From Clostridium sp. 1001271st1 H5 (GTDB taxonomy: Bacteria > Bacillota > Clostridia > Lachnospirales > Lachnospiraceae): a stretch of 64,000 bases of DNA. Shown piece after piece: positions 23,646 to 30,422 of the stretch (its first letter is position 1; each line of letters begins with the position of its first letter). Below the pieces are notes generated by a model, which was not told where the DNA came from, searched no databases, and saw only the letters and a list, made by a program, of their open reading frames with translations. Position numbers and translations under genes: made by a program. The stretch is from positions 124,001 to 188,000 of the forward strand of contig NZ_SPHO01000002.1 of the NCBI RefSeq assembly GCF_005845215.1. Reading direction: 5' to 3'.

Positions 23646-23891
23646 TTAGATGGAGCCGTGGAAGGTCCTTGAAATGACCTCGTCCTGCTGCGCTTTTGTC
23701 AGCTTGTTAAAATTTACCGCATAGCCGGATACCCTGACTGTGAGCTGGGGATATTTTTCAGGATGGGCCTGTGCATCCAGAAGGGTTTCCTTGCTGAATA
23801 CATTTACATTCAGATGGTGTCCGCCTTCCTGGGCATAGCCGTCTAACAGGGCCACCAGGTTATCAATTTGTGATTCGCTTGCTTTTACCAT
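23646..23891 (-). CDS. Stand-alone glycyl radical domain of pyruvate formate-lyase
   Basis: An 81-residue protein equal to the C-terminal part of normal PFL. It opens with [25 protein letters not shown]-like sequence (cited in short: [18 protein letters not shown]) and ends with the radical loop [11 protein letters not shown], radical Gly 56, and VISRTFH. In usual PFL these residues are fused to the catalytic part. The upstream PFL gene stops before them, so this protein must supply the radical in trans. It resembles the spare-part protein YfiD/GrcA of E. coli, but here it is a required subunit, not a repair part. GAGG at about 10 bases upstream is a fair ribosome site. Confidence 0.92.
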
Positions 23892-23937
23892 AACATTAAT
23901 CCTCGCTTTCTCAAGAAAATGGTTTATATGCTGTTAA

Positions 23938-26046
23938 TCAGGATTCCTCGATGTCGGCCTCGGAGTCCAGTCCCTCAAAGAGGGTGGGCGCTTCGCAGCC
24001 GCCTCCGCAGCCGTTCAGCTCTACTTCCAGGTCGCCCATGAAAATCTGGTCATCCTTGCCCAGAGCGCCGGGAATGATGGAGAAGGTATTGGAGATACCG
24101 TCCTGCGCATCCCTGAATGGAAGCTTTGCCACAGATGCCAGGGATGCAACCGCCCCATGGCTGTCCCTGTGGTGCATTGGGTTGGCCCCCGGTGCAAATG
24201 GCTGGCCGGCCTTCCGGCCGTCCGGGGTTGCGCCTGTGTTATTTCCATATACCACATTGGAGGTAATGGTAAGGATAGAGGTGGTGGGAATGCCGCCGCG
24301 GTAGGTGTGGTTTCCCTTTATATAGCTCATGAAGGTGTGTACCAGGTCTGCTGCCAGCTGGTCTACCCTGTCATCGTTATTTCCATATTTAGGGAAGTCT
24401 CCCTCCACGATATAGTCGGTCACAATGCCCTGTTCATTGCGGACAACCCTGACCCTGGCATACTTAATGGCGGACAGGGAGTCTGCCACAACGGAAAGGC
24501 CTGCGATGCCGGTTGCGAACCAGCGGGTCACCTTCTTGTCATGGAGCGCCATCTGAAGCCTTTCATAGCAGTATTTATCGTGATTGTAGTGGATGATGTT
24601 CAGGGCATTGACATATACCTTGGCCAGCCACTTCATCATATCTTTGTATTTGTCCATTACATCGTCAAAATCCAGATATTCCGTGGTTACGGGGCGGTAC
24701 TTGGGGCCTACCTGCTTGCCGCTGATTTCATCCACCCCGCCGTTGATGGCGTAGAGCAGGCACTTGGCCAGGTTGGCCCTGGCGCCGAAGAACTGCATTT
24801 CCTTGCCGATGCGCATGCTGGATACACAGCAGGCAATGGCATAATCATCGCCATGGGTTACCCTCATCAAATCATCGTTCTCATACTGGATGGAGGAGGA
24901 CTCAATGGAAGTCTTGGCACAGAACCGCTTAAAGTTCTCAGGAAGCTTTGTGGACCAGAGTACGGTCAGGTTCGGCTCAGGGGCAGTGCCCAGGTTCTGA
25001 AGGGTGTGCAGATAACGGAAGGACATCTTGGTCACCATGTGGCGTCCGTCGATTCCGATACCTCCGATGGATTCCGTAACCCATGTGGGGTCCCCGGAGA
25101 ACAGCTCGTTGTATTCCGGCGTCCTGGCAAATTTTACAAGACGCAGCTTCATAATAAAGTGGTCTACAAATTCCTGAATCTCTTTCTCCGTATAACGTCC
25201 TTCCGCCAGGTCGCGCTCAGCGTAGATATCCAGGAAGGTGGAGGTGCGTCCCAGGGACATAGCGGCGCCGTTCTGCTCCTTGACAGCAGCCAGGTAGCCC
25301 AGGTAGGTCCACTGTATGGCCTCCTTCACATCGGAAGCCGGCTTTGAAATGTCAAAACCATAGATACGTCCCAGCTCCTTCAGGTCTTCCAGGGCTCGAA
25401 TCTGCTCAGACAGCTCCTCGCGCTCCCTGATAACATCCGAATACATGATGGTGCGCGTGGAATCCTTTTCTTCCTTTTTTTCCTGAATCAGGGCGTCCAC
25501 ACCGTAAAGGGCAATCCTGCGGTAGTCTCCGATGATGCGTCCGCGTCCATAGGCATCCGGCAGCCCTGTGATGATATGGCTGGAACGGCAGGCCCTCATT
25601 TCAGGGGTGTATGCATCAAACACACCGGCATTGTGGGTCTTCCTGTGCTTCATAAAGAATTCCACAATCTCAGGGTCAACCTCATAACCGTTATCCTGGC
25701 AGGCCTTCATGGCCATGCGGATACCTCCGTAAGGCTGAAGGGAACGCTTAAAGGGTTTGTCGGTCTGAAAGCCTACAATGGTTTCCTTGTCCTTATTCAA
25801 ATATCCCGGGCCGTGGGAGGTAATGGTGGAAATGATTTTTGTATCCATATCCAGGACTCCGCCGGCTTCCTGTTCTTTTTTTGACAGTTCCATGACCTGG
25901 TCCCACAGCTCTGTGGTATTCTGGGTAGGACCTTCCAGAAACTCATCGTTTCCGTCATAGGGGGTATAGTTTTTCTGTATGAAATCGCGTACATTGATTT
26001 CCCGCTGCCATACACCGCCTTTAAATGTGTTCCACTCTGTTCTCAT
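23938..26046 (-). CDS. pflB: Pyruvate formate-lyase, catalytic part lacking the glycyl radical domain
   Basis: A 702-residue PFL; full-length enzymes have about 750-760. The catalytic Cys pair is in [15 protein letters not shown] (Cys 406-Cys 407). The sequence follows PFL up to [12 protein letters not shown] and then, instead of the radical domain, carries a 36-residue acidic tail with a CGGGC motif (680-684) and ends ADIEES. The radical glycine is on the next gene 46 bases downstream. It converts pyruvate and CoA to acetyl-CoA and formate under anaerobic conditions. The clean ends of both parts argue for an established split, not a recent frameshift. Confidence 0.93.
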
Positions 26047-26215: not shown

Positions 26216-26387
26216 GAGGGCTTAGTGATAATATTTTTTAACAAGCCTTGATAATTATGGTTAATATGAAAAATATGTATGTCCAGGTTGGACTTGTAAA
26301 ATGTCGAAAAACGTATTATGATGGTAGAAGCGTGGTAGACCGATAAATTGGGTATACTGATAGCAGAAATATAAGGAGGACACGATA

Positions 26388-26591
26388 ATGGAAATTAGTA
26401 AAGACATGCTCATCGGACAGTTAATCCATGTAGATGACAGTATTGCTCCAATCCTGATGCGTGCCGGAATGCATTGCCTTGGCTGACCGGCATCCCAAGG
26501 AGAGTCTCTGGAAGAGGCCTGTATGGTACACGGTATTGACTGTGATACACTTGTTTCCCAGATTAACGAAATTCTGGCAGCAAAAGCCTGA
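26388..26591 (+). CDS. DUF1858 redox protein with in-frame TGA, candidate selenoprotein (CxxU)
   Basis: A 67-codon gene with AAGGAGGA (26373-26380) before ATG 26388. It reads MEISKDMLIGQLIHVDDS... to GMHCLG, then TGA (26484-26486), then PASQGESLEEACMVHG and on to a second TGA at 26589. Family members (DUF1858, hybrid-cluster-protein-associated disulfide domain) have Cys at exactly this place, giving a CxxC pair; here it is Cys 30-Leu-Gly-TGA 33. Sequence after the TGA is fully conserved in frame. A hairpin with a UGGAA loop begins 14 bases past the TGA. Selenocysteine is the best reading; a nonsense mutation of a Cys codon is the alternative. A terminator follows. Confidence 0.75.
26501..26520 (+). 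promoter_or_regulatory. Candidate bacterial SECIS hairpin
   Basis: Downstream of the in-frame TGA, GUCUC (26504-26508) pairs with GAGGC (26514-26518) around loop UGGAA, and AG pairs with CU outside a bulged A. The loop starts 23 bases after the TGA and has G in its second position, matching the published bacterial SECIS pattern (loop 16-37 bases after UGA, G in the first two loop bases). Confidence 0.5.
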
Positions 26592-26616
26592 TGAATATCT
26601 GAAACAGTGATTGGAG

Positions 26617-26658
26617 GAACCTGGCTCAGGGGATATGTGACTGAGCCGGGTTCTTTTT
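26617..26658 (+). terminator. Terminator of the DUF1858 gene
   Basis: GAACCTGGCTCAG pairs with CTGAGCCGGGTTC around an 11-base loop and is followed by TTTTT. It ends the small gene as its own transcription unit. Confidence 0.92.
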
Positions 26659-26782: not shown

Positions 26783-27850
26783 ATGGATATGACATTGCGT
26801 TGGTTCGGTGAGGGCGTGGATTCTGTATCTCTGGAGCAAATCAGGCAGATACCGGGTGTGAAGGGCGTGGTTACCACCCTGTATGACATTCCGGCCGGGG
26901 AGGTCTGGCCCATGGAGCGCATCCTTCAGATGAAGGAACAGGTGGAGTCCAGGGGATTAAAGGTTCTGGGGATTGAGAGTGTCAATATCCACGATGCAAT
27001 CAAGGTGGGCACCCCTGACAGGGAGCAGTACATTGCCAACTACATTACTACCCTGGAGCGTCTGGGCCAGGCTGATATCCATGTGGTGTGCTATAATTTC
27101 ATGCCGGTCTTTGACTGGACCCGTTCCGACCTGGCTAAGGAGCGCCCGGACGGCTCCACGGTGCTGGCTTACAGTCAGAAGGAGATTGACAGGATTGACC
27201 CTGAGAACATGTTCCAGTCCATGGGAGAAAAGTCCAATGGATTTGAGCTGCCTGGATGGGAGCCGGAGCGCATGGCCCGCATTAAGGAACTGTTTGACAT
27301 GTATAAGGATGTGGATGAGGACCGCCTTTTTGACAACCTGGTGTATTTCCTGAAGGCAATCCAGCCTGTATGCGAGAAGTATGATATCAGGATGGCCATT
27401 CACCCGGATGACCCAGCGTGGCCCGTGTTTGGACTGGCCAGAATTATTACCGGCAAGGAGCAGCTCCTTAAGCTGATGAAGGCCGTGGATGCAGCCTTTA
27501 ACGGCGTCACTCTGTGCACTGGCTCCCTGGGAAGCAATCCGGAAAACGACATTCCGGATATCATCCGGTCCTTAAAAGGAAGGATTCCCTTTGCACATGT
27601 GCGCAATCTGCAGTATAATGCTCCTGGAGATTTCCAGGAAGCTGCCCATCTCTCAGAAGACGGCAGCATGGATATGTATGAGATAATGAAAGCGCTGTAT
27701 GACATTGGTTTTGACGGAATCATGCGCCCTGACCACGGAAGGGCTATTTGGGGAGAGGTGTCCATGCCGGGATACGGCCTTTACGACAGGGCCCTGGGAG
27801 CATGCTACTTAAATGGTTTGTGGGAGGCCATCCGGAAGCAGAACCGCTAG
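26783..27850 (+). CDS. uxuA: Mannonate dehydratase
   Basis: A 355-residue UxuA-type enzyme. The opening MTLRWFGEGVDSVSLEQIRQ, GVVTTLYDIPAGEVWP, the metal-site CYNFMPVFDWTR, AIHPDDPAWPVFGLARI and MRPDHGRAIWGE are all typical. It dehydrates D-mannonate to 2-keto-3-deoxygluconate in glucuronate breakdown, using Mn2+ or Fe2+. AAGGAGG precedes the ATG. It is followed closely by a YiaK-family dehydrogenase and a GntR regulator. The usual partners, uronate isomerase (uxaC) and 2-keto-3-deoxygluconate kinase and aldolase, are not in the window, so the pathway must be completed elsewhere. Confidence 0.95.
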   Translation: MDMTLRWFGEGVDSVSLEQIRQIPGVKGVVTTLYDIPAGEVWPMERILQMKEQVESRGLKVLGIESVNIHDAIKVGTPDREQYIANYITTLERLGQADIHVVCYNFMPVFDWTRSDLAKERPDGSTVLAYSQKEIDRIDPENMFQSMGEKSNGFELPGWEPERMARIKELFDMYKDVDEDRLFDNLVYFLKAIQPVCEKYDIRMAIHPDDPAWPVFGLARIITGKEQLLKLMKAVDAAFNGVTLCTGSLGSNPENDIPDIIRSLKGRIPFAHVRNLQYNAPGDFQEAAHLSEDGSMDMYEIMKALYDIGFDGIMRPDHGRAIWGEVSMPGYGLYDRALGACYLNGLWEAIRKQNR

Positions 27851-29672: not shown

Positions 29673-30422
29673 CTAGATTTTTGCAAGATTCTGAAGGGCA
29701 TTATCCTGAATCATGACCTCATAGTGTTCCCTGAAATAGGCTTCACTGGCTGCTTCACCTGACAGCTTGGTGGCATATTCCGCCAATATGTTGCATACCC
29801 GGGAGAAATCCAGGTCGCCGCAGTCCAGGCGTTTTACAATCAGATAGTACTGTCTGGTGCCGGGCTTCTTATACAGGGTGTTGACGCCGTTATAGATTCC
29901 CCATACGGCCCTGGACGCTTCGCTGATGCGGTCCAGACTGTTGAAACGGAAAATGCGGCTGCTGGCAACAGCGCCGGTATTTTTCTTGGCAGGGGTTTCA
30001 GGGGACCTGTCCGTGCTGTCCTCATCTCCAACCTGTTCCACGGAGCCGGGCTCCAGGTAATTCAGGGAATCCGGTGCGCCCTCCAGGAACTCACTGGCTA
30101 ACTGCGACACAAGAGAATTCTGGTTGTCGTCTGTGAAAGGTGAGAACTTGGCAAAACGGGTATCCAGTTCTTCCGGGTCTTCAATTTTGGTGATGACCAG
30201 CATAATGCTTTCGCTGGACAGCGGAATCGCCTCAACCATGAGCGGAATATCCTCCGCTTCAAAGCCGACCTCATTGGAGGCTTTCTGAATCATCTCCCGA
30301 AACAGCTTTCTGGCCTTTTCTGTTCCATAGGCCAGTTCAACCAGGTTAATATTGCGCGCGCTTAAATCAAAGCTGGTCAATGTACAGCGAATCTGGTTAT
30401 CATTGATACGTTCTATCTTCAT
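29673..30422 (-). CDS. mecA: Adaptor protein MecA
   Basis: A 249-residue MecA protein. The N-terminal region (MKIERINDNQIRCTLTSFDL) binds targets, a poorly conserved acidic linker lies in the middle (residues about 110-150), and the C-terminal domain (SLDRISEASRAVWGIYNGVNTLYKK...) binds ClpC. MecA delivers substrates such as competence factors to the ClpCP protease and activates ClpC assembly. AGGAAG precedes the ATG. It is monocistronic, with a convergent GntR gene on one side and a divergent kinase gene on the other. Confidence 0.9.
   Translation of the reverse strand: MKIERINDNQIRCTLTSFDLSARNINLVELAYGTEKARKLFREMIQKASNEVGFEAEDIPLMVEAIPLSSESIMLVITKIEDPEELDTRFAKFSPFTDDNQNSLVSQLASEFLEGAPDSLNYLEPGSVEQVGDEDSTDRSPETPAKKNTGAVASSRIFRFNSLDRISEASRAVWGIYNGVNTLYKKPGTRQYYLIVKRLDCGDLDFSRVCNILAEYATKLSGEAASEAYFREHYEVMIQDNALQNLAKI

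Follow-up and report, generated by a model that had tools for sequence, protein, structure and literature searches.

The window, a 64,000-nucleotide stretch of the Clostridium sp. 1001271st1 H5 genome (G000; 6.52 Mb in 75 contigs), holds a short gene of the DUF1858 family with a TGA codon at a conserved cysteine position. The gene, its signals, and its immediate neighbors are as follows.

23646..26046, minus strand: divergent pyruvate formate-lyase (702 aa) and GrcA3 glycyl radical protein (81 aa), from profile matches
26373..26379, plus strand: ribosome-binding site AAGGAGG, read directly
26388..26591, plus strand: DUF1858/TIGR03980 gene, 67 residues with codon 33 as selenocysteine, TGA stop included, from the frame and domain matches
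26475..26486, plus strand: CxxU motif TGC (C30), CTT, GGC, TGA (codon 33, proposed selenocysteine), from the sequence and the genus comparison
26504..26518, plus strand: proposed bacterial SECIS apical stem-loop, loop at 26510-26512, from folding and geometry fit
26613..26657, plus strand: intrinsic terminator 3' of the DUF1858 gene, from folding and a T-rich 3' side
26783..27850, plus strand: UxuA-type mannonate dehydratase, downstream, from a profile match

The AAGGAGG motif, read directly from the DNA, ends 8 nt before the ATG at 26388, and the same motif with the same spacing is also found in three relatives (G002, G005, and G013, the last a different species of the genus). The sole in-frame interruption of the frame is the TGA at 26484-26486, codon 33, and the family sequence 3' of it is intact up to the TGA at 26589-26591, which is directly followed by a second TGA. 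With codon 33 taken as selenocysteine (Sec), the read-through product is MEISKDMLIGQLIHVDDSIAPILMRAGMHCLG-U-PASQGESLEEACMVHGIDCDTLVSQINEILAAKA, 67 residues in all. This product matches PF08984 (DUF1858) over model positions 1 to 59 of 59, with 77.7 bits against a cut-off of 32.2, and TIGR03980 over positions 1 to 58 of 58, with 91.5 bits against a cut-off of 44.95; C30 and codon 33 form the CxxC/CxxU pair of the DUF1858 protein. It is the only PF08984 match in the genome, and it has the one internal TGA. The terminator is a 17-pair hairpin of -28.1 kcal/mol (z -6.5) with a loop of 11 nt, and a simple consensus scan with a loop limit of 8 gave no match at 26613-26657. A first-pass annotation, made from the letters alone, had described a strong ribosome site, a DUF1858 frame open except for a TGA at the second Cys of CxxC, a second stop, and a terminator, and each of these elements, and with them the observation as a whole, was borne out. 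Gene callers that take TGA as a stop would be expected to truncate the gene, and the first-pass view that standard callers would miss it is plausible.

The flanking genes say little on the role of the DUF1858 protein. The pyruvate formate-lyase is split into the 702-aa part, which is without a full glycyl radical tail, and the separate 81-aa GrcA3 (NF038360, 165.7 bits; cut-off 158). G013 also keeps the 702-aa form, and the split arrangement is probably known, since GrcA3 has an NCBIfam model of its own. Farther along the window, 3 kb downstream of the DUF1858 gene and opposite to it in orientation, lies a MecA gene (29673-30422, minus strand), and a MecA gene is likewise downstream and opposite at the related loci L087, L092, L094, L096, and L100, with the assignment confirmed by Pfam for the window and L087 and made from the N termini for the other four.

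The genome that holds the window has a complete set of Sec machinery. The selB gene is at C7:106424-108313 (364 bits), adjoined by selA (599 bits), and a tRNA-Sec lies 1.5 kb from selB, scoring 61.7 bits against a gathering score of 47. On the same stretch as selB are glycine reductase genes, a selenium-associated LysR regulator (NF040786), a YedE-family putative selenium transporter (TIGR04112), and an aminotransferase class V protein. The selD gene (365 bits) itself has one internal TGA and reads CGGU, and GrdA reads CFVU, also by way of an in-frame TGA, so that the candidate is accompanied by two standard selenoprotein genes; these are the other in-frame-TGA genes that were examined here. 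The search for selA, selB, selC, and selD that the first-pass annotation had proposed therefore found all four, and a genome devoid of Sec machinery, which it had named as an argument against a selenoprotein, is not what is seen.

A scan of genome_contigs for the exact pattern TGY-NNN-GGN-TGA, together with downstream family residues, gave 32 loci, 20 of which read as DUF1858 with CxxU, G013 included. This is at least 20, a lower bound, because the scan demands some family residues and may miss the genomes nearest the window. By their labels, the carriers are Faecalicatena faecalis, Enterocloster hominis, Candidatus Copromonas, other Lachnospiraceae, Negativibacillus, an Oscillospiraceae bacterium, Faecousia, Ruminococcus-labelled MAGs, Tissierella, Anaeromonas, and Lutispora. 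The 12 remaining matches (L075, L081, L082, L084, L088, L090, L093, L097, L098, L099, L102, and L106) were dropped as chance, their sequence not being DUF1858. The same pattern in viral_contigs gave eight matches, none with the DUF1858 motif, and in seven of the eight the frame stops within 10 codons past the TGA. A selB gene over the cut-off is found in all 20 genomes with Sec-DUF1858 loci, versus 22 of the 98 genomes of a relatives set (the window genome plus relatives); the tie of TGA to selB is strong, and it is an association and not a calibrated P value, as the two genome sets differ in taxonomy.

The surroundings of the gene differ among carriers. A YedE-like transporter gene is near the Sec-DUF1858 gene at the Lutispora-type loci L078, L079, L080, L101, and L104; an aminotransferase class V (lyase-like) gene follows at all of these except L079, and a hemerythrin gene adjoins at L080 and L104. 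These neighbors were assigned by Pfam for four L104 genes and the L080 hemerythrin and by sequence likeness for the rest. At L104, the Sec gene is flanked by a ScdA_N-hemerythrin (RIC-type) gene on one side and a hemerythrin gene on the other, and the YedE-like and aminotransferase V genes lie 1.2 to 3.6 kb on from it. Such company raises the idea that UGA-33 is a selenium-responsive switch, giving a 32-residue product at low selenium and the full protein in excess, and the presence of both a YedE-like transporter and an aminotransferase class V gene within about 0.6 to 3.6 kb at L078, L080, L101, and L104 would fit it. We consider a switch at the window gene improbable, as no YedE-like or aminotransferase V neighbors are beside that gene, and as termination at UGA under selenium shortage is expected of any selenoprotein gene and so indicates nothing specific.

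The first-pass annotation had also pointed to a hairpin within the bacterial SECIS range, and one is present: GUCUCU-GGA-AGAGGC at 26504-26518, with six pairs and a GGA loop lying 23 nt past the UGA, and with outer pairs that extend further on both sides in the predicted fold. As given in the portion of PMC13188914 that sets out the bacterial SECIS model, the loop has 3 to 9 nt with a G in its first two positions, the upper stem has 4 to 16 bp, the distance from the UGA is 16 to 37 nt, and the minimum free energy is at most -7.5. The window hairpin falls within all of these, with -11.5 kcal/mol over 39 nt, computed on the identical stretch of G013. Agreement with the model means little, since the bare geometry, without the energy limit, admits some stem in 29 of 37 Cys rows and in 19 of 20 Sec rows. 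Folded alone, the window hairpin is no better than chance: the 57-nt fold 3' of the TGA has a z of -1.06, with 25 of 200 shuffles as good, and the synonymous-shuffle z for the stretch common to the window and G013 is -0.65. An Rfam search of 26470-26560 gave no match even at E values up to 10.

The hairpin stands out at the group level only. The comparison drew on 21 Sec rows, with 19 different sequences over the first 48 nt and 20 over the first 60; for the Cys side, 46 loci (L018-L047 and L055-L070) were searched and 41 kept, 37 of them distinct in the first 48 nt; L057 was left out because it has the TGA, and L029, L037, L039, and L043 because of a motif misfit. All four apical pairs form in 13 of the 19 distinct Sec rows versus 7 of the 37 distinct Cys rows (Fisher P of 4e-4); among rows with [ST]LEE, CTCTGGAAGAG is present in 11 of 14 Sec sequences versus 4 of 29 Cys sequences (Fisher P of 6e-5); and synonymous-codon shuffles give a mean z of -1.25 for the 19 Sec rows versus -0.28 for the 37 Cys rows (P of 0.003), all by Fisher and Mann-Whitney tests that ignore relatedness. 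At L095, the fourth apical pair is kept by a two-sided change. Six of the 19 distinct Sec rows, among them Negativibacillus and Oscillospiraceae-type rows, are without the apical stem, and the hairpin sequence is largely the coding sequence of a conserved motif. The weak statistics of the hairpin in this particular sequence, and the fact that Sec insertion is something we infer, leave some room for a reading in which near-cognate decoding, with Trp or Cys for instance, carries translation past UGA-33 and no Sec is involved. The chance of this is very small: TGA also terminates the same gene, its position is that of the conserved Cys, and it goes with selB in 20 of 20 genomes versus 22 of 98.

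A PF08984 profile search found a match in 92 of the 98 genomes, and among the matches listed there are two internal stops, both TGA, in the window gene and in G013; TAA or TAG interruptions are absent from the same matches. The DUF1858 gene is present in all 17 genomes of the genus, with Cys at codon 33 in 15 and TGA in 2, the window genome included, so the TGA is common to the window species and one of the 16 other species. A selB gene is over the cut-off in 7 of the 17 and a tRNA-Sec over the gathering score in 6. Both TGA carriers are among the seven selB-bearing members, and the other five keep Cys, which indicates that Sec is not required here. G013 has no tRNA-Sec over the gathering score; a contig break is the likely cause, for its selB starts 1.5 kb from the contig start, where the tRNA is expected by comparison with the window genome. 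Among the six genus genomes whose tRNA-Sec passes the gathering score, three carry a pair of them within approximately 270 bases of each other (G008:C107:567292-567554, G012:C1:575422-575652, and G015:C1:4657104-4657351), and the remaining three carry a single one.

The window genome and G013 differ in the flanking genes, with a pS of 0.40 and a pN of 0.012 over 702 codons of the pyruvate formate-lyase and a pS of 0.34 and a pN of 0.013 over 355 codons of UxuA. In the DUF1858 gene, the 34 codons 3' of the TGA show three synonymous differences and one nonsynonymous difference, and the 32 codons 5' of it show three synonymous and four nonsynonymous differences, a weaker sign of constraint 5' of the TGA than 3' of it. 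The differences fall at positions 6-59 and 149-194 (A of ATG = 0); there are none at 60-148, the span that holds the CxxU motif and the hairpin, so the first 53 nt counted from the TGA, its own bases included, are the same in both genomes. A TGA unique to the isolate, which the first-pass annotation had put forward as the mark of a nonsense mutation or a sequencing error, is contradicted by its occurrence in another species of the genus and at 19 further loci. Although a Cys codon in 15 of 17 genus genomes places a recent pseudogene just one change (TGC to TGA) away, that explanation is largely refuted, and barely credible, given the same TGA in G013 despite flanking synonymous divergence of 0.34 to 0.40, the intact frame after it, the lack of TAA or TAG among the matches listed of the 98 genomes, the 19 further TGA loci, and a selB gene over the cut-off in each of the 20 carrier genomes.

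A tree of 57 short rows and 61 columns, weakly resolved, was used to follow the site across carriers, leaving out L027, L044, L046, and L047 as duplicates of genus rows, L033 as the fusion copy of G007, and L077 as the same gene as L057. The tree needs nine U/C changes; the bootstraps give 7 to 9, and the well-supported branches by themselves call for at least 3. By these changes, counted without regard to direction, Cys and Sec have replaced each other at this site more than once.

We are highly confident that the window gene encodes a selenoprotein. The locus offers a whole gene, a TGA at a conserved Cys, machinery genes in the same genome, conservation across species, and selB in 20 of 20 carrier genomes, and these support the selenoprotein interpretation of the first-pass annotation. 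In the mechanism that we propose, SelB with Sec-tRNA, guided by the stem-loop just 3', would decode UGA-33 as selenocysteine, and the UGA at position 68, which lies past the hairpin, would terminate. The predicted product is a 67-residue DUF1858 protein with the CxxU redox pair C30-L-G-U33, most likely a small thiol/selenol module for disulfide or selenenylsulfide exchange, and of the kind that relatives carry as a fusion to Prismane-family (hybrid-cluster-type) proteins.

As to function, the protein is probably a small CxxU thiol/selenol redox module, which on the best reading would act in thiol, iron-sulfur, or nitrosative-stress chemistry. DUF1858 was found fused to the C terminus of a Prismane/CO dehydrogenase family (PF03063) protein in all three of the relatives examined, out of several with long frames, in line with the name of TIGR03980, a hybrid cluster protein-associated domain. 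The window genome has two PF03063 genes, both on contigs other than that of the DUF1858 gene, and unsorted between the hybrid cluster proteins and CO dehydrogenases that PF03063 covers; no ScdA_N protein was found in that genome. At L104:4743-5441 (minus strand), the ScdA_N (DUF542) domain of the RIC-type protein weakly matches DUF1858 with an E value of 5e-4, below the cut-off, hinting that the ScdA_N and DUF1858 domains may share common descent. A broader and rather speculative idea, which we think doubtful, makes DUF1858 a redox partner that anaerobic Clostridia-type bacteria have "selenium-upgraded" again and again: Cys and Sec would have switched several times at the one residue, and the Sec form would serve either selenium handling (the YedE-like and lyase-like neighbors) or a network of nitrosative-stress defense and iron-sulfur repair (hybrid cluster protein, RIC/hemerythrin). 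If this were true, the small protein would be a natural test case for what a thiol switch gains from selenium. Close selB-bearing relatives use Cys or Sec at one site, and this makes the benefit of selenium testable in one 67-residue protein.

The first-pass annotation had suggested that some relatives in other Firmicutes were noted as selenoproteins, and this proved correct. DUF1858 CxxU (pfam08984; representative WP_012065717.1) is entered as a predicted selenoprotein family in Table 1 of PMC9312934 and in the tabulation of PMC13188914, in both cases among the families listed as predicted and experimentally unverified. The searched literature on DUF1858, TIGR03980, Enterocloster, and Lachnospiraceae or gut selenoproteins, as far as its accessible text goes, yielded no report of the gene in this group; DUF1858 is named neither in the main texts of PMC5029168 and PMC2398784, both cited for this family by the 2026 review, nor in PMC12013277. 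A Thermus protein with an N-terminal DUF1858 acts in nitrate respiration, according to the part of PMC6282519 that describes it.

By its published description, the tabulated predicted selenoprotein has both its Pfam domain and its Sec motif, CxxU, in common with the window gene. With DUF1858 CxxU already tabulated, the window gene is a well-supported further member of a known family, beside 20 loci from several taxa, and what is added beyond that family is modest, namely, a wider list of carriers and the repeated Cys/Sec exchange; the short DUF1858 CxxU family is wider than a single table entry suggests. Compared to the TIGR03980 redox disulfide domain, which it matches over its full length with 91.5 bits, the window gene stands alone and has TGA in place of the second Cys. 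Two solved homologs, 2K53 (A3DK08; match to residues 1 to 66, E value of 9e-22) and 2K5E (residues 3 to 62, E value of 1e-7), both carry Cys, unlike the window gene, and their molecule names state no function. The GrdA and SelD genes of this genome have an in-frame TGA in CxxU-type motifs and share the same machinery with the window gene, but they belong to other protein families with known biochemistry.
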